Positions 8,427-19,508 of a stretch of DNA of 64,000 bases are shown here, one piece after another. Both the position numbers and the translations under genes were made by a program. The first letter of the stretch is position 1. Every line of letters begins with the position of its first letter. Below the pieces are notes generated by a model, which saw only the letters and a list, made by a program, of their open reading frames with translations, did no database searches and was not told where the DNA came from. This stretch comes from a virus: the IMG/VR virus record IMGVR_UViG_3300033144_005375, positions 1-64,000 of that record, one strand, 5' to 3'.

Positions 8427-9218
8427 CTAGGAAGTGATGAAGTCAGAACCGCCACGGCCAGAGCCATTGTTGAAGCGCACAGAGCCAAGCTGGTTGATCG
8501 ACGGATCGTTGCCTGTCGCCAGGAATTCGCCGTACTCGGAGGAGAAATCGTGCACGTCAGAGATCGTCACATCGCCGGTCTCCATCAGCATGCCCGTGTC
8601 GCGGCTCAGGTTCGTCAGAGACCAGGAGTTGAACCAGCAGGTCTCGTAGAGCGTGATGATCGCCGTGTGGCTACGTGCGTCTCCAGGGACGCCCTGGGGG
8701 TCGTTGGTGACCGTGGGGTATTTGATCGACTTGACGCCACCGTCAAAAGTGCCGCCGCCGCCGTTGAAGCCCTCACCCGGTTGACCCGTGAGGTCCAGAT
8801 CAGCCACCGTCGAAAACACGAGCTGCTGCTCGATGTCGAAGGGCCAACGGTGATGTCGAAGGGATCGAACCGGTCCACTCGCACCACCAGCGTAACCAGT
8901 GGCCTGCCACAGGTTCGAGAGGTAGAGGAGCGCGCGCTCGAACCCGGCCGTCATGGCCTCGGTCACGGACGGTACGAGCTCGGCGATCATGTCGCCGAAG
9001 CCAATTCCACGAAGAGTGTCGATCGTACGAGTCTCGTTCGGCGTGAACGAACTCAGAACGCCCATCTGGAACAGGAGTTTGGCGTCGGTGCCGTACGCGG
9101 GGGTCAGAAGGCGGACCTTCTGAGAAACGGCAGTACGCGTCTGGGGCGACGTGCCGAAATCGTAGATGTAACTGGAACCCTGGACGCCATTGGCAGGCGC
9201 ATTGTCTGTATTGGCCAT
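8427..9218 (-). CDS. Putative tail tube protein
   Basis: 263 residues from the ATG at 9218, which has a strong AAAGGAAAG ribosome site; an earlier in-frame codon at 9251 would add 11 implausible residues. The protein is beta-rich with no low-complexity tail (GSSYIYDFGTSPQTR, ETCWFNSWSLTNLS, METGDVTISDVHDF). Its identity is inferred from order: sheath, tube, chaperones, tape measure is the usual myovirus arrangement and this is the only structural gene between sheath and chaperones apart from the nuclease insertion. A strong terminator follows, fitting a highly made protein. A stretch near residues 120-130 may be read in a locally shifted frame (see findings). Confidence 0.65.
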   Translation of the reverse strand: MANTDNAPANGVQGSSYIYDFGTSPQTRTAVSQKVRLLTPAYGTDAKLLFQMGVLSSFTPNETRTIDTLRGIGFGDMIAELVPSVTEAMTAGFERALLYLSNLWQATGYAGGASGPVRSLRHHRWPFDIEQQLVFSTVADLDLTGQPGEGFNGGGGTFDGGVKSIKYPTVTNDPQGVPGDARSHTAIITLYETCWFNSWSLTNLSRDTGMLMETGDVTISDVHDFSSEYGEFLATGNDPSINQLGSVRFNNGSGRGGSDFITS

Positions 9219-9397
9219 GTGCTTTCCTTTCGGTAAAACGGCTGGCCCCAACTCGGGGATCCAGAACCGCGCAAAATGGGACTAATTTGGTCCCTCTACT
9301 AATTGCGCTGGCTATAGGGAGACAAACGAAGCCAATCACAAGCGCGCAATGCGCGGACCCTACCGAAAGGAATTCGTGAAAAAGAGACCTCGCAACT
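9219..9397. other. Hairpin-rich gap between nuclease-methyltransferase gene and tube gene
   Basis: This 179-bp gap contains a CGCGCAATGCGCG stem near 9344-9356, a GGGAC...GTCCC stem near 9278-9294, and a CCCC...GGGG stem near 9246-9258 just before the tube ribosome site. A palindromic CTATAG lies at 9312-9317. On the minus strand these would act as terminator, processing site or promoter for the tube gene. No coding frame is convincing here. Confidence 0.5.
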
Positions 9398-11995
9398 TCA
9401 CCGACGAAACACCAAAAGAGGGTCTGCCCGAAGAGCTTTCGATCTCAACCTACGCACAGGCATGTACACAGGTGGTTGGATCGAAAACCCAATCGCCGCG
9501 GCAAGCCTTACGGCCTCATCCGCCAAAACAAGGCCATCCAAAGGCTTGGCTGGAAGATTCAAAACCAAATGCCCCCCTGAACGCAACCGTGAAAAAGCCG
9601 TCTTGATTAGAGGCGCCAGAAAAGCGCCCACCCAGTCGTTAATGTTCGAGTAAGAGAGCGCTTTTTTTGAACTCTCTCCATACACCTCCAAATCGAAATA
9701 CGGAGGGGACGTAAACACCAAATCCAAAGGCACCTTTGGGTCAAAAGTCTCCGCGCGGGCATGCACCAATTTGCACTTCTCTGAACAACTCAGTGCTTCC
9801 GCCAGCGCACGGTTGCCTTCGATAGTAGCAGGCTCCACATCCGTTCCGATGTAAAGGCCCATACCCGAGGCCATCACACCAAAAAGACGACCCCCGTATC
9901 CGGCACACGGGTCCCACATCACGCCTCCAGGAACGCCATAACGATCACATACGAACTTGGTGACCCCAGGACGGAACACGGAAGGAGTACGGCAAAGCAT
10001 CATCAGAGCCTTCAAAACCCTTGGACCGGTTGTTGGGTGCCCCGCATTGAGCTGAACCTTGATTGCAGATTTCAGCTTGGTATCGTCTTGCCAAGCTTCT
10101 CGTAGGCTAAGCGCTCCCCGGTACCGGGCATCCGCACGGTTCGGGAAAAACGAAGCACACACCGTAGTTCCGCGATACGTGTACGGTCGAACAAACCCCT
10201 CGGGGTCTACGTGCATCGTCTGTGAGCTTAACTTGGTGAATTCCGCTTTGGTTTTTTTGGAAGGCTCAAGCTTAGGGAACCCCTCCTCCCTCAATCGTTG
10301 AAACACGTGGTCAATGTCCTGCGCGCGTAACTCCGGGTTTTTGTTGGCCCACAAAGAAGCGTCTCCCCCAAAAAGCTTTTTCCAGAAACGCACGTCATGA
10401 ACAGGGTCCTGATATCGGACCACCTTGACCTCGTAACCTAACTTCCGAGCTCGGGCAATTTTGAACCGGTCAAGTTCTTGAAGACGCTCAAACTCCTCAT
10501 GGGTTTTATGCCAAGACTCGATGAAGTAGAAGTGCTGTTCCCCATGGGCCTCAAGAATGAGAGACTTCGCAGAAAAATACCCATCAAAATGAAATAGGCG
10601 CCCGGTCATCTCATTGAAAATTCGAGGGTCTGTCCACTCCGACTCATACTGGGTTCCTAGGGCCGAGGCAGCGTTATCCAAAACTAATTTCTGCCAACCC
10701 AACCTACTACGTGTTTTCAGACCTAGGTCCGCACAGTTACGGCGAATTTGCCACTGCGCACAATTCAATGCCTTAGCGGCTGCCGCTGCGATCACGCGTC
10801 CCTCTTTATCCCGAAAAGGGCGAAGCTGGAGTTCCGTCAATACCAGCTTGTTTGCAGGGATAAACCTTTGTCCTGCTCGCAAAGCTGTAAAAGGCGCTTC
10901 TGGGTGTTCTTTGCAGTAGCGCTCAAAATCATGGGCAGATCGTAGATGCGAAGTCAAGTTCTCAGCACGGTGCCCACACTCTCGACAAGACACATAGTCA
11001 GCAGGCTCCTTTTTCCCTTTCCACAAGATGAGTTCGTCTTCTGCTTTGCAGTCATCACAACGCAAGTCATGAAGGGACCCCGCAAATAAAGAGACCTCAA
11101 GCTGCTGACCACAAGTTGGACAGTTCACCTCTTTCTGCGCTCCTTTCCAAAAGTCATTTTTCGCACGGCCCTCTAAGGAGGCGCTTAACCGCTTCTGTTC
11201 GACACGTTCAATGCGCCAGCAAGCCCCAGGCCATTTGCGAACATAAGAAGAAGGGGTCATGTCGTGGGCAGTTTCAAGATGTTTCCACAAGTTCTTCGCA
11301 CGATGCCCACACTCTCGACAAGACACGTGATCCGTACCAAGGTCTCCCAGCTTCTCTTCTGCTCTCTCACTCCTCCATGCTTGATGTTCTTCATCTTGAG
11401 CAGAGTGGAGATGGGCGGTTAGCCCTCGAGAACCAACGCACATCAAACCACAAATAGGACACGCGGTATCCGCTCCCCGACGCTTTTGATCACAAGGAGC
11501 ACAGAAGAAGTGGTGACGTTTGGCCGCGGAAATCGCAGACACCTCCAAGTCAGTGCCGCAAGTCTCACAAGGAACCTCGACCTTTCGGACTTGATGTTTC
11601 TGTCCTTTATGCTTCTTAGCGTTTTCAGCCGACCGGATTTTTTGTAACCGGGATCCTCGTGCCCGCACGTTTTGGTCCCCGTGTTCCGCTCCCCACCATT
11701 CTCGAATTTTCGCATAGTGCACCCCTAGCCGAAGCGCCACTTTCTTCATGGGTTCTTCCGTCGAAAACGCACTCAACGCCTTAGCTCGAACTTTAGGATC
11801 TGCTGCGTTCCCCGTCTTGGATTTAGCTAATCCACGGAGACGATTTGCGCGCTCTCGAACGCTGTCTTTCCCAAACACCTCTTTCCATGTTCGAGTAACC
11901 CGATCACGACCAACACCGATGTGCTTGGCCGCTACAGCCACAGCATCATCGGTGTTGAACGCGTCAAGAATCTTTTGACGAAGCTCCGGGGACAC
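9398..11995 (-). CDS. Zinc-finger/HTH homing-type nuclease fused to a DNA methyltransferase
   Basis: 865 residues, GTG start at 11995 inside a large hairpin. Domain order: two helix-turn-helix-like segments (about 15-45 and 70-105); zinc-ribbon or finger motifs at 143-168 (CETC...CAPC), 179-198 (CPIC), 226-245 (CREC...H..TAH), 292-316 (CPTC...CDDC) and 337-356 (CREC...H..SAH); another HTH near 400-430; a PD-(D/E)XK or Vsr-like nuclease near 468-530 with D471 (FHFDGY), E482, H484, E486 (LEAHGEQH); and an amino-methyltransferase at about 670-865 with motif I DPCAGYGG (695-702) and motif IV TSPPY (762-766). The TSPPY form fits N6-adenine or N4-cytosine methylation. It sits between sheath and tube genes, a common place for free-standing homing endonucleases. 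Joint nuclease and protective methylase action is inference. Confidence 0.8.
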   Translation of the reverse strand: MSPELRQKILDAFNTDDAVAVAAKHIGVGRDRVTRTWKEVFGKDSVRERANRLRGLAKSKTGNAADPKVRAKALSAFSTEEPMKKVALRLGVHYAKIREWWGAEHGDQNVRARGSRLQKIRSAENAKKHKGQKHQVRKVEVPCETCGTDLEVSAISAAKRHHFFCAPCDQKRRGADTACPICGLMCVGSRGLTAHLHSAQDEEHQAWRSERAEEKLGDLGTDHVSCRECGHRAKNLWKHLETAHDMTPSSYVRKWPGACWRIERVEQKRLSASLEGRAKNDFWKGAQKEVNCPTCGQQLEVSLFAGSLHDLRCDDCKAEDELILWKGKKEPADYVSCRECGHRAENLTSHLRSAHDFERYCKEHPEAPFTALRAGQRFIPANKLVLTELQLRPFRDKEGRVIAAAAAKALNCAQWQIRRNCADLGLKTRSRLGWQKLVLDNAASALGTQYESEWTDPRIFNEMTGRLFHFDGYFSAKSLILEAHGEQHFYFIESWHKTHEEFERLQELDRFKIARARKLGYEVKVVRYQDPVHDVRFWKKLFGGDASLWANKNPELRAQDIDHVFQRLREEGFPKLEPSKKTKAEFTKLSSQTMHVDPEGFVRPYTYRGTTVCASFFPNRADARYRGALSLREAWQDDTKLKSAIKVQLNAGHPTTGPRVLKALMMLCRTPSVFRPGVTKFVCDRYGVPGGVMWDPCAGYGGRLFGVMASGMGLYIGTDVEPATIEGNRALAEALSCSEKCKLVHARAETFDPKVPLDLVFTSPPYFDLEVYGESSKKALSYSNINDWVGAFLAPLIKTAFSRLRSGGHLVLNLPAKPLDGLVLADEAVRLAAAIGFSIQPPVYMPVRRLRSKALRADPLLVFRR

Positions 11996-11996
11996 C

Positions 11997-12027
11997 CACG
12001 GGTCCTACCCTATCAGTAGGACCCGTG
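11997..12027 (-). promoter_or_regulatory. Perfect 12-bp hairpin at the 5' end of the nuclease-methyltransferase gene
   Basis: CACGGGTCCTAC pairs perfectly with GTAGGACCCGTG around a seven-base loop. It lies between the sheath stop (12042) and the GTG start at 11995; the only Shine-Dalgarno-like AGGA is inside the 3' arm. There is no following T-run, so translational control, RNA end formation after the sheath message, or an element boundary are more likely than a simple terminator. Confidence 0.7.
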
Positions 12028-12041
12028 CAACCTCTGGTCGC

Positions 12042-15000
12042 CTAGGCGCCCAGATTACTGCGAAGATTGAAAGTTATAACGATGTATAAAAGGGGAAATA
12101 CAGGCTGGTAGAATGCTTCCACCTCGACGATGGTGGGATCGTTGGTCGTACGAGCCTGGATCCCGGTGAACGCCGTGATGATTTCCTGGTTCTTGAGCGC
12201 CTTCATCGTTGTCGAAAGCTGACCCTCGATTTGGGACAGAACGCCCGGCAGGAACTTGATGCCAACGAAGCGATCGAGGTCCCGTCGAGACGCACGCTGC
12301 ACCTCGTCCGCGATGGTGATCACGGTCGGCAGCTTCGTCAGAATGTTCGACGGGTCCGTGGTGAGGCCCTGACGGACCCGAATCACGGTGCCCCGCTGGT
12401 CAAGGATGGTGACACCCTGGACAGCGATCTGGTTCTGTTCCACCGCATCCAACGTGCGTGCCAGAGCATCGAACCCAACAATGCGTGCCCGTGTCCACGG
12501 GGTTGCCACATCGATGTTCGGGCTCGCCCGGTTGGCAGCCATGGCCGCAGCCAGGAACGTGCCGTCCACCAGGAACTGCTTGTCGTTGCCGAGAGCATCC
12601 TGGATCGTGAGCGTCACGATATCCGGGTACACCAGCCGGATGCGGGTGTTCTGGATCTGCTGCGCAATCCCACCAACGTCCGTCGGCTGAGTGCCCGACG
12701 AGACTCCGATGATGCCCGTACGCTCGGCCCGGAAGCGAATACTGGACTGAACGTCGCAGTGGTTCGACAGGGCAAAGAACAGGTCGATGTCATCACCCTT
12801 GAGCGGGGTGATGGTATCGAGCACCGAACCGCCAGGCAGCGGCCCACGAAGGTCGTTGAGCGCATCGATGTACGAAGCGGTGCTTGCCTGGTTGCTACCA
12901 GGAATCTTGGGCACCTGATTGATGGCGATGACCACCGCGCCGTTCAAGAACGCCAGGAACGCTGCCAGAGAAACCGGGTTGTCCGGGTTGATCTGACCGT
13001 AGTTCCGCTCCACCACCCGTTGGCTGGTGAAAAGCAGCGTCTGGAAATCAGCTTCCGTCTTGGAGTAGTTGTAGGTGATGAAGTACGAATCACCCACCGC
13101 CGGCTCCTGACCGCCACGATCGAAGGTCTCGATGATGGCCGTGTCGCCCGTCGGGATCGTGGACCCCTCAGTGTTGGCCACGGTGACCTCCACGCCGGGG
13201 ATCGAGTTGATCGGCACGTTGGCATCCGTCGTCACCAGTTTGCGCACCTCGAAAGTGAAGTAAGCGCCTGCACCCGTCGGGTAATCAGCCCCACCATCAC
13301 GCTCGAGGATGGTGAAAATCAGACCGGTAACCACATCGCGGTAGCTCTGACCGAGGACGCCGTCCTGACCCACGCCGTTGTTGAGGCAGGAGGTGTTGGC
13401 CGAACCGGACCCGTCGATGGGATCCGAGCTTGTGACGTAGAACCCCTGGAAGCCCGTCTCACCGGACGCGCCTGCACCCGCTTGTTCGAGCAACCCGGTG
13501 CCCGTACGGAGCCATGAGTCCGAAGTGGCGTCCAAGAACACGATGTTCGAGGAGGCGCCCAGACCGACGATGTTGTTGGCCTGTGACTCGATGAACAGGA
13601 ACTCCGCGTTGCTCGAGTCCACCACCTTGGCGGCCAGAGCCTGATCCGCGAACCAGGTCGCGTCGGGGCTCTGGTAGTCGAGGAGGACACCGTTGATGCT
13701 CGAGCTGTGGTGCATCATCAGAGCCGATGCCACCTTCTCGACCTCTACGGTCTCCCGATTCGCCGTGGCGTCCTCGGAGAACCCGAGAGAATCGTTAGCG
13801 TTTCCGCCATCGATCGTGACCGCCGAAGTGGTGTCCACCACCTGCGACACGAGACGGAAGCCTGCACCCTCGGGCGCGATGGCCGAAGCTGCCAGACCCG
13901 AACCGACGATGGCGGTCTGGATCTGCTCCATGATCGTGTTGGGAACCCCGATGGGCCCGAGCGGAACCGTTGCCGAGCCCGCAGCAGGAATCGCGGCACC
14001 GAATGCGTCCGTGAACACCACGGTGATGGGAGTCCCATCGATGTTGAACTTGAACACGTTGTTCTGTGGGTTCAACCCGTTGGCGCCGTAGAACTGAACC
14101 TGCGGCTGACCATCACGGTCATCCGTGTACGTTCCCGAAGGCACCTGACCGTCCGCGAAGCCAGTCTCGCCAACAAGTGACGCCGGCTGCAGGACCGCTC
14201 CGATACCCGCCTGACCAAAGGCCAGAGAAGTCAGACCCGTCTCGGTCTGTGCGTTCGTACCCTGGACGATCAAGTTGGTCTGAGCCACCTGACTCTCGGG
14301 CCGCATGGAACCGGTTCCGGGAGTGATGCGGTTGCGCAGGATGATACGGTCGTAAATCAGACGACCGCTGGTACCCGATACCGAGAACCGACGAGCCACA
14401 TCACCATCGGTGATCTTCGTCTGCTCCTGACTCGGAAGCGCATCCGTGGAGATCCCCGCGAGAACCGCGAAATCCGCTCCCAAACTGGCAGCATCGAGGA
14501 ACTCGAAGATACCGCCGCCGAGACCGGAACCACCCGTGAGGGTAGCTGCGGAGACCGGGAGACGGACCCCATCGCTGGAGATCAGCGTGATGAAGTTCCC
14601 CTGGGGCCCAGGATCGGCCGCGGTGATGTCCACCGTGGACGAAGTGCCCGAGCTGTTGTCCGCCGTGACCAGAACATCGAGCCCGTTGAGGGGATCGGTG
14701 ATCGCCGTCACGATGGTTGTACCCACACCCACGTCGGTCAAACCGCCGCCGAACGTCGCACCCGAAAGCGGGAGACGGACGGGATTGGAGCTGGCCATCG
14801 TGATGCCGTTGCCCAGAACACCAGGCACGTCAGCCCAGATGGTCACGATGGTGGAGGTCCCACCTGCGTTGTTCGCCGAGATGTCGGCTGCCAACCCGTT
14901 GCCCAAATCGTTGACCGCCGCAGCGATCGAACTGGCCACCGAGAAGTCTGTGCCCACACCACCCGCGAGGGTGAGGCCAGCCATGATCAGACGGATCGAG

Positions 15001-18000
15001 GTCGAACTCGTCGTATCGATGATGTTGCCGGAGTTCCCTGGCGTCACCGCGGTCATCGTCACCACGTTGATCGCTGCCAGCGCAGTCACGGTGACGACGA
15101 TGCCGTTACCAGCATCGTTGATCGCAGCCGCGACGGAGAGCGCCACGGTCGTGTTGTCTCCGATACCACCCAACAGGGTGGCCGCGGAAAGTGCGATGCG
15201 AACACCACCGGTGGACTCTGCCATCGTGATGCCGTTGCCCACCGTACCTGGTGTGAACGCATCGATATCGACCGTAGCCGAGGTGCCACCCGTGTTATCA
15301 GCGAGGACACCACCGAGACCGTTGGCGGCATCCAAGATCGCCGCCACCAAACTCGTGGCTGCGGAGATGTCGTCGCCCACACCACCGGTGAAGGACGCGC
15401 CCGAAAGGACGAACCGACCCGCTGCCGTGGTGCTCAGGGTGAGCAAATTGCCGGCCGCTCCGGGAATGACCGCCGTGAGATTCACGGTGTTGCCAACCGC
15501 AACTGCGGTGGTAATCGTGTCGAAGGCATTGGCAACATCGTTGATGGCAGCCGTGGCGTCCGTTGCCGCAGTGAGATCGTCACCGATACCACCCGCCAAT
15601 GTTGCGGCACCCCAGGTGATTCGAGCCGGCGCGGTCGAAACCGTGCTGATCGAGTCGCCTGCAAGCCCAGGCGTAAGGGCCTGAATATCAACTGTGGCCG
15701 AAGCACCGGCCGTGTTGTGTGCCTGAACGAGACCCGTGAGTCCGTTGAGGACATCCGAGATCGCGGCCACGATGGCCGTGGCCGTGGTGATCTCGGTTCC
15801 CACGCCAGCGATCGTGGCTCCGAAACCACCAGCGGTGGTCACGGTTCCGTCAGAGCTCATGTTGGTGATGACGTTGGCAAACGCGCCCGGAACCGTCCAG
15901 GTCAACGTCACATCCGAAGGACCGGGGCCCACCGCGGCGCTCATGAACGTCGCGAAGGCATTGGCCGGATCGTTGATTGCCGAAGCAATCTCAGCCGCGA
16001 TGGCTGCCGTGGTACCGAGCGTCTCGTCGTAGTCATTCGCACCAGAGATACGAGGACCGCCCGCCGGAGTCAGCGGGAATGGCCCACCGTTGGCCGCACC
16101 GGTGTCGATGGTGACGGTTGCGCTCGAGGGAGCTGCCGTCACGACCAAGGTGTCAGTAGCCTGAGTACCAGCGTCGAAGTTGAGACCACCAGGAGTGGTC
16201 ACATCGTCAGCCGTGAGTGCGATGCCTCCGATGGTGATCGTGTCACCGTAGAGGACACCCGTGCTGGGAGCCAACGAATCAGCCACGACGACCATGGCAC
16301 CGAGCGAACGCGTACCCGCATCGAAATCATCCGAACCGGGGGTACGAGCACCTTCGACCGGAGTCAGCGGTGCGCCATCGATGGTCACCGTGTCCGCCGG
16401 AGTTACCGGGAACGGAGCGATGGTTTCGGGACGAACACCCATCGTCATGAAGTCGGCGAGGGCCGATGTACCGACGTTGAAATCGAGACCGCCTGGGGTC
16501 AGCACGTTGCTGGCCGTCAGGATGACGGGACCACCGCCCACTGCGGAGGTATCGACGGTGATCGTGTCACCGTACTCGACCGAAGCCAGGGTAGCGGTGC
16601 CAGTGGCTCGCGTTCCTTCGTCGAAATTGAAACCACCAGGAGTCTGAGCTCCCAGTGCGGTCAAAGTGACGCCGTCCACCACGATGGTGTCGCCCGGAAC
16701 CGGACCAACCACCGTGAGGCTGCCCGTTGCAGCGGTGCCCTCGTTGAAGTTCAAACCACCAGGGGTCTGAGCGCCAGCCGCGGTCAGGACCACAGGTCCG
16801 CCACCAACAGCAGTCGTGTCGATGGTGATCGTGTCACCCGACTGGACACCCGTCGCAATGACGGTGCCTCGAGCCTGTCCGGTGTCGTAGTTCAGGCCAC
16901 CCGGAGTGACGCCCAGCGAACCGGTGAGCGTGATGCCGCCGATCGCAATGGTGTCGTTCAGGAGGGACCCGACGTTCGTGACGGTGCCCGTGGCGAACGT
17001 ACCGAGGTCGGTGTCTGCACCTTGGAAGGTGAAGCGAATGCCACCATCAGCGTTTGCCGTGGCAGTCACATCGATGCCGTCGTACGCAGCCGGGAGGGCC
17101 GCGATGGCGGTGTCGATGGCGGTGTCAATGGCAGCCGCCAAGAAGTTCGGCGAAACATACGTTCCCGGTGCGATGGTCGCCGTGACAGGACCGGTCGAAC
17201 CGTTCGTGATGCCCGTGTAGTTGAACACGAGCTGGTCGTACTCGCCGGCCGTGATGATCGTGGTTCCAAGGAACCGAGTCACACCATCGTAGTAGGCTTC
17301 GTTGCCGGTGAGTTTCGCCTCGGCGTTGATCGCCTCGACGTACGCATCCGCATCGACACCCGTTTGACCAGGCACGTTGACCGTGACGACGACGTTGTCC
17401 ACCGTGAACGACACGTTGTCGTTGATCCCGGCCAGGATGTCGTACGTGGTCTTGCCCGAATCGTCGGTGTACTCGATCTCATTGCTCAAAAGAGACGCGT
17501 TGAAACCGAGACCGGAGATGCCGTGTGGGGCCGACAGATCGATACCTGCCGTGCCACCCGCCAGCAAAGTGCTGTCGATGGTGAACCGAGCCCGATCGGA
17601 CTCGCTTTCCACGAAAGCGTAGGGGCCGGAGCCGGCCACCGTGAACTTGGCGATCGTGGCGTCCTTATCCGCGAACTGAACGGTGACGGTCTCCTCGACC
17701 GGACCATCCGTCGAGCCCTCGAAGTGGACATCAGGGGTGATCTCGGAGCCCGAGGGGAACTGGATCGTGACGCCAGTGAGCGCCGGTCCCTTGGAACCGA
17801 ACTTCGGCGTGTAGATCGGATTCCCGTTGCTGTCGAACAGGAAGTAGGACCCAATACCGGAAGGACCGCTGACCTGGACTTCGACCGTGTACTCCTGATC
17901 GACCAGGATGTTGTACCAGAAGGTCGCGAAGACCTCAGCACCCACGGGCACCGAGTTCTCGAGGGTGATCTCGACCCCGTTCACCTCAGTGACGTTGACT

Positions 18001-19508
18001 TGACCACGCTGGAGAGCGTCTTGGATCCCGAAGCCCCAGTACGCCTTGACGAGATTGGGGTTGTTCGTGGGAAGGTCCCGACGATTGTTGCTGATCGACA
18101 GGAAAGTTTCGGTGCCAAGCGGTGTGTCACGACCGTTACCCGTGGTGGGCTGAGCCGGCAACGTGAACTTCGTGCGATCTTCGATGGGCGGCGTGACCGA
18201 ATCGTCGATGACGACATCAGTGGAGGCCAAGAACCAACGGTTGTCGATGAGCAGACCACTGATCTGCGTGGCACCGAAAGGAGGAGCTCCCGTGCTCGTG
18301 ATTCCCGAAGAAATCAGGAAAGCGGTTCCCCAGACGACGAGGTCGTCCTTGAGGATGAAATCCGCGCCTTCGATGAAATCGTTGTTGAGCGGAACGATGC
18401 CGCACCGGATGACTTCCGTGACGTTGATGTTCGCCAGGTAGTCGAAGGTGTCCTGCCAGGTGTTGAAGTAGTACTCGATCGTGACGCTGGCACCGACCTC
18501 GGGTGCGAACGGAAGAGTCACGGCCCGGTTTTGACCATCAACCTCGGTCGGGATGACCTGGATGCCATCCACCCGAACCGTCACTTTTGACGTATCGGTG
18601 GTGGTGATGCCGCCATTGGTGCCATCGACGATGGGACCGTTGAACGTGAAGTAGGTCTGGTTGCGGTTGGTGTCTTGACCCTGCGTGAAGCCCAAGATGA
18701 CGTTGGAAGAGCCGTCACCCATGAGCAGATCGCGGTCTGCAACGAGTCGAACAGCCGTGAGGCCGAAGTTGTTGGTGTACTCCGAGGCCACCAAGGAGGT
18801 GCCCGTAGCAGCACCATTGATCAGCGAGACAATGGTGGCAGCGGTGACAGAGCCCGTGGGGAAGACGGTTGTGACGATCTGCTGAGTAGCCAGCGTCGAG
18901 TCAAAGTCCACGGTGACACTGAACTGGTTGGTCTCCGAGGTGAACTCGTACTGGTTGCCGATCGCACCATCGAGGATGGCGCTGATCTGAGTCGTCTGGT
19001 TCGACAGGTCATCAGTGACCAGCGTGTCCGTGCGCTTGAAGAAGTACGTGATCCGCACATCGTCCCCAAAATTGGGGGCGGTGCTGATCTCGATGACTCC
19101 AACGTCTGCGCGGGCCACGCTCAGGACCACGTCGGCCTGACCGTTGATCGTGACGAAGATCGAGCTTGGGTCTGTGGCGATGATGCCGGCGCCGTCCCCG
19201 TTGGTGATCGGGAAGTTGCGCACCTGGATGCGACGACGCTCACCGTTGAAGTCACCAAGGAGGACCTCACCCGTGTCGGTGATCTGAACGACCGAACGGC
19301 CGGTCTCGTCTTCTTGTGGGACCTGCTGGTCTACCGAGCTCGATGAGCCACGGATGATCTCGAGGTCTTGCTGTTGGAGAAGCTCATTGCCCGTCCCGAT
19401 GAGTACCGGAATGCGTACACCAGCCAGCACCGCAGAGACAGGGCTCTGGAATAGCGTTCTCGTGTAAATTCCTGGTGGCGAATAAATGTTGCCCGGAAAA
19501 TCTGCCAT
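12042..19508 (-). CDS. Giant tail sheath protein with repeat insertions
   Basis: 2488 residues; typical sheath proteins are about 400-700. The N-terminus (FPGNIYSPPGIYTRTLFQS) and the C-terminal part (about 2100-2488, ending FYQPVFPLLYIVITFNL, after TVITIADEVQRASRRDLDRF) match the conserved ends of contractile-tail sheath proteins. Between them lie beta-rich domains and two repeat arrays: seven units with PGG-NFD-GT cores (about 855-1160) and seven units with A-IND--NGL and PG--GN cores (about 1175-1660). The ATG at 19508 has an AGAGGT ribosome site. The insertions probably form outward-facing Ig-like or lectin-like decorations on the tail tube; that location is inferred. The frame is intact over 7.4 kb, so the length is selected rather than decaying. 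Confidence 0.85.
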   Translation of the reverse strand: MADFPGNIYSPPGIYTRTLFQSPVSAVLAGVRIPVLIGTGNELLQQQDLEIIRGSSSSVDQQVPQEDETGRSVVQITDTGEVLLGDFNGERRRIQVRNFPITNGDGAGIIATDPSSIFVTINGQADVVLSVARADVGVIEISTAPNFGDDVRITYFFKRTDTLVTDDLSNQTTQISAILDGAIGNQYEFTSETNQFSVTVDFDSTLATQQIVTTVFPTGSVTAATIVSLINGAATGTSLVASEYTNNFGLTAVRLVADRDLLMGDGSSNVILGFTQGQDTNRNQTYFTFNGPIVDGTNGGITTTDTSKVTVRVDGIQVIPTEVDGQNRAVTLPFAPEVGASVTIEYYFNTWQDTFDYLANINVTEVIRCGIVPLNNDFIEGADFILKDDLVVWGTAFLISSGITSTGAPPFGATQISGLLIDNRWFLASTDVVIDDSVTPPIEDRTKFTLPAQPTTGNGRDTPLGTETFLSISNNRRDLPTNNPNLVKAYWGFGIQDALQRGQVNVTEVNGVEITLENSVPVGAEVFATFWYNILVDQEYTVEVQVSGPSGIGSYFLFDSNGNPIYTPKFGSKGPALTGVTIQFPSGSEITPDVHFEGSTDGPVEETVTVQFADKDATIAKFTVAGSGPYAFVESESDRARFTIDSTLLAGGTAGIDLSAPHGISGLGFNASLLSNEIEYTDDSGKTTYDILAGINDNVSFTVDNVVVTVNVPGQTGVDADAYVEAINAEAKLTGNEAYYDGVTRFLGTTIITAGEYDQLVFNYTGITNGSTGPVTATIAPGTYVSPNFLAAAIDTAIDTAIAALPAAYDGIDVTATANADGGIRFTFQGADTDLGTFATGTVTNVGSLLNDTIAIGGITLTGSLGVTPGGLNYDTGQARGTVIATGVQSGDTITIDTTAVGGGPVVLTAAGAQTPGGLNFNEGTAATGSLTVVGPVPGDTIVVDGVTLTALGAQTPGGFNFDEGTRATGTATLASVEYGDTITVDTSAVGGGPVILTASNVLTPGGLDFNVGTSALADFMTMGVRPETIAPFPVTPADTVTIDGAPLTPVEGARTPGSDDFDAGTRSLGAMVVVADSLAPSTGVLYGDTITIGGIALTADDVTTPGGLNFDAGTQATDTLVVTAAPSSATVTIDTGAANGGPFPLTPAGGPRISGANDYDETLGTTAAIAAEIASAINDPANAFATFMSAAVGPGPSDVTLTWTVPGAFANVITNMSSDGTVTTAGGFGATIAGVGTEITTATAIVAAISDVLNGLTGLVQAHNTAGASATVDIQALTPGLAGDSISTVSTAPARITWGAATLAGGIGDDLTAATDATAAINDVANAFDTITTAVAVGNTVNLTAVIPGAAGNLLTLSTTAAGRFVLSGASFTGGVGDDISAATSLVAAILDAANGLGGVLADNTGGTSATVDIDAFTPGTVGNGITMAESTGGVRIALSAATLLGGIGDNTTVALSVAAAINDAGNGIVVTVTALAAINVVTMTAVTPGNSGNIIDTTSSTSIRLIMAGLTLAGGVGTDFSVASSIAAAVNDLGNGLAADISANNAGGTSTIVTIWADVPGVLGNGITMASSNPVRLPLSGATFGGGLTDVGVGTTIVTAITDPLNGLDVLVTADNSSGTSSTVDITAADPGPQGNFITLISSDGVRLPVSAATLTGGSGLGGGIFEFLDAASLGADFAVLAGISTDALPSQEQTKITDGDVARRFSVSGTSGRLIYDRIILRNRITPGTGSMRPESQVAQTNLIVQGTNAQTETGLTSLAFGQAGIGAVLQPASLVGETGFADGQVPSGTYTDDRDGQPQVQFYGANGLNPQNNVFKFNIDGTPITVVFTDAFGAAIPAAGSATVPLGPIGVPNTIMEQIQTAIVGSGLAASAIAPEGAGFRLVSQVVDTTSAVTIDGGNANDSLGFSEDATANRETVEVEKVASALMMHHSSSINGVLLDYQSPDATWFADQALAAKVVDSSNAEFLFIESQANNIVGLGASSNIVFLDATSDSWLRTGTGLLEQAGAGASGETGFQGFYVTSSDPIDGSGSANTSCLNNGVGQDGVLGQSYRDVVTGLIFTILERDGGADYPTGAGAYFTFEVRKLVTTDANVPINSIPGVEVTVANTEGSTIPTGDTAIIETFDRGGQEPAVGDSYFITYNYSKTEADFQTLLFTSQRVVERNYGQINPDNPVSLAAFLAFLNGAVVIAINQVPKIPGSNQASTASYIDALNDLRGPLPGGSVLDTITPLKGDDIDLFFALSNHCDVQSSIRFRAERTGIIGVSSGTQPTDVGGIAQQIQNTRIRLVYPDIVTLTIQDALGNDKQFLVDGTFLAAAMAANRASPNIDVATPWTRARIVGFDALARTLDAVEQNQIAVQGVTILDQRGTVIRVRQGLTTDPSNILTKLPTVITIADEVQRASRRDLDRFVGIKFLPGVLSQIEGQLSTTMKALKNQEIITAFTGIQARTTNDPTIVEVEAFYQPVFPLLYIVITFNLRSNLGA
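14520..16000 (-). repeat. Seven-copy type B repeat array in the sheath gene
   Basis: Seven units of about 65-70 residues share the pattern A(I/V)(N/S/L/T)D--N(G/A)(L/F), a TVDI or NLTA strand, PG--GN-I and a closing L(S)GAT-(T/G)GG. Examples are AINDPANAF, AISDVLNGL, AILDAANGL, AINDAGNGI, AVNDLGNGL and AITDPLNGL. The boundaries are estimated from the translated repeats. The same unit occurs once in the virion protein at 41756-42805. Confidence 0.8.
16010..16940 (-). repeat. Seven-copy type A repeat array in the sheath gene
   Basis: Seven units of about 40-45 residues share GDTITI(D/G) followed by a strand, then TPGG-NFD-GT (examples TPGGLNYDTG, TPGGLNFNEG, TPGGFNFDEG, TPGGLDFNVG, TPGSDDFDAG, TPGGLNFDAG, ISGANDYDET). 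In single-copy form this unit precedes one type B unit in the 349-residue protein at 41756-42805. Confidence 0.8.

Follow-up and report, generated by a model that had tools for sequence, protein, structure and literature searches.

What might a protein that joins a nuclease to a DNA methyltransferase be doing between two structural genes of a phage tail? The question is raised by a stretch of 64,000 nucleotides (the window), part of an 82,295-bp IMG/VR virus record, in which a gene with a GTG start (9398..11995, minus strand) encodes an 865-aa predicted fusion of helix-turn-helix (HTH) segments, a zinc array, a Vsr-type nuclease and a DNA methyltransferase. It is flanked upstream by the tail sheath gene (2488 aa; 12042..19508, minus strand), which relatives also have adjoining it, and downstream by the tail tube gene (8427..9251, minus strand). 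The frame comprises 868 open codons with zero internal stops, the GTG at 11995 lying three codons past a stop, and the GC content of the gene is 51.5-54% as against mostly 56-63% in its surroundings. A preliminary description of the window had placed a single 865-residue frame between the sheath and tube genes; we confirmed that this frame is open and found it again in relatives. A 100% or near-identical copy of the protein is encoded by a second contig of 23 kb (L004), and full-length relatives occupy the same slot in a 141-kb contig (L005, 67% identity) and in the loci L011 and L012, the longer of which is a 213-kb contig (59% identity). Since the gene recurs across independent contigs, a chance or artefact origin of the frame was rejected, and the fusion gene with its motifs is real, far beyond chance. 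The full-length AlphaFold2 model of the protein had a pLDDT of 88.4 and a pTM of 0.56.

The N-terminal half of the protein appears to be devoted to DNA binding. Two HTH repeats (approximately residues 1-65 and 67-128; 11612..11995, minus strand) are all-helical in the model, match Pfam HTH_23 weakly and are kept in L005, L011, L015 and others. They are followed on the same strand by five zinc modules, four of which are assigned from the conservation of their ligands: module 1 (C143/C146/C165/C168; 11492..11569), module 2 (C179/C182/H195/H204; 11384..11461), module 4 (C292/C295/C313/C316; 11048..11122) and module 5 (C337/C340/H350/H355; 10931..10987). Module 3 (C226/C229/H239/H244; 11264..11320) is of the Ros/MucR type according to Pfam (PF05443, E 1.4e-11) and PDB (2jsp, E 1e-5). 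All 20 of the 20 zinc ligands are retained in L005, L011, L015, L188, L193, L187, L029, L206, L212 and L215. A third helical, HTH-like segment (residues 388-430; 10706..10834, minus strand) was recognised in structure models. Thus, the at least five zinc-binding motifs noticed in the preliminary description are five modules with ligands kept in several distant relatives, and the HTH segments that it listed are helical in the model and conserved.

The next domain, at residues 433-545 (10361..10699, minus strand), is predicted to be a Vsr-fold nuclease of the EDxHD type from its invariant residues, its model, Foldseek and PHROG 9084/559. The residues that define it are E453, D471, E482, G485, Q487, H488, D509 and K512, among which E453, D471, H488 and D509 presumably correspond to E25, D51, H64 and D97 of Vsr. 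In the 31 aligned rows D471, E482, G485, H488, D509 and K512 were present in all 31 and E453 in 29, L018 having N at that position; in an alignment of 58 sequences D471, E482, G485 and H488 never varied, and Q487, D509 and K512 hardly did. The core had originally been assigned to D471, E482 and H484, of which the first two hold, whereas position 484 varies between H and Q and the invariant histidine is instead H488. The nuclease-like fold anticipated within residues 440-560 was recovered: in the AlphaFold model of the domain (pLDDT 93.7) the best solved Foldseek match was the Vsr endonuclease 1vsr (E 9.4e-4, probability 1.00; 1cw0 also 1.00), followed lower down by R2 retrotransposon proteins and AbaSI/PvuRts1I enzymes, and the agreement with the Vsr fold was modest (TM 0.42-0.51). 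PHROG 9084, annotated as homing endonuclease, was matched by each of the 12 nuclease sequences that were aligned first. The Pfam search of the domain gave no match, the sequence profile search against PDB chains returned no homing endonuclease (3hrl appeared at E 0.053), and I-Bth0305I was absent among the best 50 Foldseek matches listed. Only the fold search placed the domain; sequence profiles did not. Because the PDB profile searches gave no homing endonuclease, we label the nuclease EDxHD-type rather than a proven member of that family.

Residues 554-865 (9401..10336, minus strand) form a DNA methyltransferase domain, as indicated by conserved motifs and PF01555, which was matched by 9 of 9 aligned members (best E 2.1e-7). 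The complete-looking methyltransferase of the preliminary description was borne out in that motif I (DPCAGYGG, 695-702) and motif IV (TSPPY, 762-766) are present and conserved, aligned relatives sharing DPCAGYGG and FTSPPY. In the full-length model the C-terminus is a class-I methyltransferase, and a viral structure search showed resemblance to the cytosine-N4 DNA methyltransferases of pithoviruses. The combination of a SAM motif I with an S/T/N/D-PPY motif IV assigns the enzyme, by motif, to the N4-cytosine or N6-adenine type. Both catalytic cores are intact in the fused relatives, save at isolated positions. Substitution rates (dN 0.19-0.45 with dS saturated or high; for L005 versus L011 across four domain blocks, dN 0.19-0.38 with dS at least 1.4 or saturated) show that both enzymes are kept by purifying selection, as dN is low beside a high or saturated dS.

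To what extent is the fusion gene tied to its place between the sheath and tube genes? With the tube protein as query we fetched 79 related loci, and wherever both flanks were present the sheath-tube gap was as short as 122 bp in L047 and 190 bp in L083, both counted as empty sites, and at most nearly 6 kb. This gap had been proposed as the place at which to compare relatives, and occupied and empty sites were both found there among close relatives. In L014 and L017, which lack the element, the sheath stop is followed by an S-adenosylmethionine (AdoMet) decarboxylase gene and then by tube; the SpeD-like decarboxylase was identified in L011 by PF02675, and L014 and L017 match the L011 gene by tblastn. 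In L005, L011 and L018 the element sits between sheath and the decarboxylase gene, and in the window, L009 and L013 the element is present and tblastn detected no such gene in the slot. The decarboxylase-like gene lies at L011:5327-5725 and at L005:10606-11067, the latter copy holding an in-frame TTSHLSIH tandem repeat. Other occupants of the slot are zinc-nuclease proteins that have no methylase (L015, L029, L031, L033, L035 and L037) and, in L057, a zinc-only remnant.

The slot also holds further kinds of genes. The methylase-less zinc-nuclease gene at L033:4547-5833 (minus strand) lies in the opposite orientation. In L013 the slot gene is split (L013:1348-5677) into a 325-aa N-terminal piece, a C5-cytosine methylase gene (PF00145, 9e-71) and a 685-aa zinc-nuclease-methylase frame. 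Another slot family, found in L030, L034/L035, L059, L063 and L085, consists of VIT/von Willebrand A proteins of 795-925 aa that are mostly preceded by a small MerR-type regulator. Elsewhere in the window's own record, a 603-aa protein composed of homing-endonuclease-associated repeats (PF18780, 2.3e-15) is encoded at L003:11203-13014 (minus strand), and its gene is overlapped by a ResIII/DEAD-type helicase gene (L003:12921-14945, minus strand).

When the nuclease was searched for independently of the slot, the homologues examined adjoined a sheath gene, with sheath identity down to 36%, a count from which L034 and L035 (loci that begin inside the gene) and the most distant homologues are excluded. 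Distant carriers show no conservation of the intergenic stretch behind sheath, and therefore the homing target presumably lies inside coding sequence. A single copy of the nuclease was detected per genome in 8 of the 8 contigs tested, the largest being 618 kb, so that a dispersed transposon was rejected as an explanation.

The slot content has changed on its own schedule. The sheath and tube proteins of the closest loci are 87-93% identical to those of the window, yet their slot proteins share only 67% (L005), 59% (L011), 37% (L013) or 33% (L009) with the fusion protein; next to the same close flanks a methylase-less version at 38-39% is found in L015 and L188, and nothing in L014. Slot-protein identity so far below flank identity shows that the slot content has evolved separately from its flanks, which is what one would expect of a homing element. 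Such turnover, independent of the tail genes, is the strongest evidence for mobility.

A further feature common to carriers lies at the start of the gene. A hairpin without a T-run, CACGGGTCCTAC..GTAGGACCCGTG (11997..12027, minus strand), directly precedes the GTG, and a hairpin ahead of the GTG or ATG start is shared by the window, L005, L011 and L018; in the window, L005 and L011 the strong hairpin reads GGTCCTAC..GTAGGACC. In the unoccupied slots of L014, L042 and L052 there are T-run terminators where carriers have the hairpin. Hairpins hide the ribosome-binding site of some T4 homing genes and delay their translation, and by analogy the hairpin before the fusion gene could mask its ribosome-binding site with the same consequence.

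How did the nuclease come to be joined to a methylase? Among 36 distinct zinc-nuclease relatives 24 have no methylase and 12 have one, and the 12 make up a single clade (support 89/73; 1 change versus a shuffled mean of 10.2). It is therefore probable that a homing nuclease already in existence acquired the methylase a single time. The reverse course of events, namely that a homing endonuclease invaded in frame a methylase gene that was its host, as in the ShiLan element, has a precedent in endonucleases known to be hidden in phage methylase genes (PMC11855218). However, many phages have the methylase-less nuclease in the same slot, and the nucleases with a methylase are nested among the methylase-less ones, which implies that the methylase joined the nuclease; on the tree and slot evidence we rejected the methylase as host gene and give this course hardly any credence.

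The methylase itself belongs to a lineage with several partners. In a tree of 107 methylase domains, those fused to nucleases fell into one group of 26, with the exception of the long-branched L107 and L093, which fall outside; the support of the group was moderate (SH-aLRT 89, quick method). Every lineage member with a visible N-terminus is joined to a nuclease-type region, whether zinc-finger/Vsr, LAGLIDADG, HNH or unassigned, and nearly all remaining members of the family are stand-alone phage methylases. The LAGLIDADG fusions were identified by PF03161 (E 2e-15 to 9e-27; 1.7e-38 in LR745208) and the HNH fusion by PHROG 374 (E 4.6e-105), while in L093, a 484-kb phage, a methylase of the same family is fused to a Ros/MucR and Vsr-domain protein. 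The lineage methylases of L155 and L258 (an Actinomycetota MAG contig) have an N-terminus unmatched in Pfam and PHROGs, in which two repeats resemble PD-(D/E)XK cores by eye. Two rows of the group that are labelled as methylases alone have N-termini of about 440 aa, and one of them, L256, is a LAGLIDADG protein; the remaining such row is an incomplete copy, without its N-terminus, that lies outside the window where the record ends. This second same-family methyltransferase (record positions 81508-82287; L002, L003:17502-18293) is 48% identical to residues 606-865, groups with the LAGLIDADG-type fusions in the tree and is cut by the contig end.

The same partnership was met in contigs whose zinc-nuclease has no methylase. 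In five of 20 such contigs a methylase of the family is encoded at another place, each time as part of a LAGLIDADG-type fusion protein 659-1279 aa long; for L291 and L295 this was confirmed by Pfam, and for the other three it was read from the sequence. The contig of the 67% relative L005 also carries a LAGLIDADG-methylase elsewhere. Several contigs with a methylase-less nuclease (203-372 kb, possibly incomplete) encode no methylase of this family, the family that the search covered. Since methylase-less nucleases persist in these contigs, protection by the methylase is evidently not indispensable.

These observations bear out in part the preliminary reading of the gene as a self-protecting homing or restriction element; two of its refuting conditions, a missing nuclease fold and a lack of empty sites, were checked and neither held. 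The homing part of that reading is favoured by site-specific occupancy, empty sites and the single nuclease copy. Obligate restriction-modification is unsupported, since the closest nuclease relatives fill the slot with no methylase and several contigs of 203-372 kb that carry such relatives are without its family, which indicates that the nuclease is tolerated alone. A one-chain restriction-modification enzyme similar to type IIG, which would exclude other phages by way of a frequent target and obligate methylation and would not home, is for the same reasons improbable: the union of a nuclease and a DNA methylase in one chain and a weak PADLOC MTase_II match speak for it, but the slot is fixed and has many methylase-less homologues, large contigs hold the nuclease without such a methylase, no type IIG family was matched in Pfam, NCBIfam or PADLOC, the domain order differs and there is no evident C-terminal recognition domain.

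The fold of the nuclease calls for another comparison. Vsr repairs deamination damage at Dcm-methylated sites, and as Vsr itself is the best fold match, the fusion might be a mismatch-repair endonuclease coupled to a methylase whose sites it mends. However, the methylase carries TSPPY, a motif of amino-methylases, in place of C5 motifs, it also pairs with LAGLIDADG nucleases, methylase-less relatives outnumber fused ones, and neither the patchy occupancy of a single site nor the long zinc/HTH array is in keeping with such a role, which we consider very improbable.

It is also conceivable that the methylase is cargo, useful to the phage itself (e.g., against host restriction) and of no effect on the nuclease; its C-terminal placement would then act as insurance, as a stop or frameshift in the nuclease kills the methylase too, so that the selfish gene is kept intact. 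The same family is common as stand-alone phage genes, over whose length the fused part aligns, the methylase has been swapped between nuclease types, and methylase-less relatives thrive in the same slot. However, the nuclease-fused methylases belong mostly to one dedicated clade instead of having been captured here and there from stand-alone enzymes, and the members examined bore no fused cargo of any other kind. Together these two points indicate a specific link between cutting and methylating, and we regard the cargo explanation as possible but rather doubtful.

Taken together, the locus is probably a free-standing, single-site homing-endonuclease element of the EDxHD/Vsr type that acquired a methylase, most likely to mark the DNA of its carrier. 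The HTH and zinc-finger array would bind a long DNA site at the sheath-tube junction, near which the Vsr-fold nuclease would cut the genomes of co-infecting phages without the element; repair by recombination would then copy the element's gene into the cut genome. The fused C-terminal methylase would mark carrier DNA, so that secondary targets in the own genome would be spared and unmarked incoming genomes cut. That the enzyme cuts, that the gene homes and, most of all, that methylation is protective are what we infer here. EDxHD enzymes are described as multi-domain proteins with very long targets that are overall less specific than the homing endonucleases of eukaryotes and archaea (PMC3943268); in a genome of several hundred kilobases, such low specificity could mean many sites that nearly match. 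One methylase lineage that serves nucleases with presumably different targets fits a shared-target protector poorly, unless the DNA-binding part steers the methylase.

Two kinds of selfish nuclease are commonly kept apart: homing endonucleases, which are protected by occupying their target, and restriction-modification systems, which are protected by methylating it. In the present case a single methylase lineage shares its chain with at least three homing-nuclease types, and close nuclease relatives do without it. We tentatively propose, as a possibility, a broader class in which this lineage is dedicated to homing endonucleases, has moved between nucleases of the Vsr, LAGLIDADG, HNH and other types and marks the carrier, so that the nuclease would attack any unmarked relative; if true, homing-modification enzymes would link homing endonuclease genes to restriction-modification systems. 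There is a real chance that homing endonuclease-methylase fusions constitute a recognisable class of their own. Neither such a fusion nor a methylase lineage common to several nuclease types was described in the open-access literature searched, a limited search that leaves the term undescribed unproven. Enzymes with and without the methylase share this slot and can be compared directly for cleavage range, self-damage and spread, and natural zinc-finger/HTH nucleases whose finger number varies at a constant site may help to read the DNA-recognition code.

EDxHD/Vsr homing endonucleases, free-standing zinc-finger phage homing genes and stand-alone phage methylases are all already known. The fusion protein resembles EDxHD homing endonucleases such as I-Bth0305I in the Vsr-type fold, the conserved E/D/xH/D residues, a long multi-domain DNA-binding part, its phage origin and site-specific occupancy (PMC3943268). 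However, profile searches gave no sequence-level match of the nuclease to I-Bth0305I, and the fusion protein differs by its free-standing position between tail genes, its zinc-finger array, the additional conserved E482 and K512 and the fused methyltransferase. With free-standing phage homing endonuclease genes (HEGs), namely T4 seg/mob and those of ICP1 (PMC10448857), it shares a patchy, intergenic occurrence in one slot, and zinc fingers are found in Mob-class HEGs too; no methylase fusion of these genes was described in the literature searched, and the string 'methyl' is absent from PMC10448857. Type IIG enzymes (TspDTI and similar, PMC3384240) likewise have an endonuclease and a methyltransferase in one polypeptide, whereas in the fusion protein the order is DNA-binding part, nuclease and methylase, the genomic slot is fixed and the closest nucleases have no methylase. 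The methyltransferase domain is homologous to stand-alone phage N4/N6 methyltransferases, including those of Twort-like Staphylococcus phages and of Vibrio phage 2.058.O (AUS02009.1, 29% identity to the domain), but these are unfused proteins of about 330-390 aa that lie amid replication and nucleotide-metabolism genes in the annotated phages inspected and not in the tail slot. Finally, the ShiLan element (PMC11855218), in which a phage methylase conceals an HNH endonuclease, also brings a homing-type endonuclease and a phage methylase together at one locus; its endonuclease is inserted out of frame into the methylase, whereas the nuclease in the window is fused in frame to the N-terminal side of the methylase, in a slot between tail genes.
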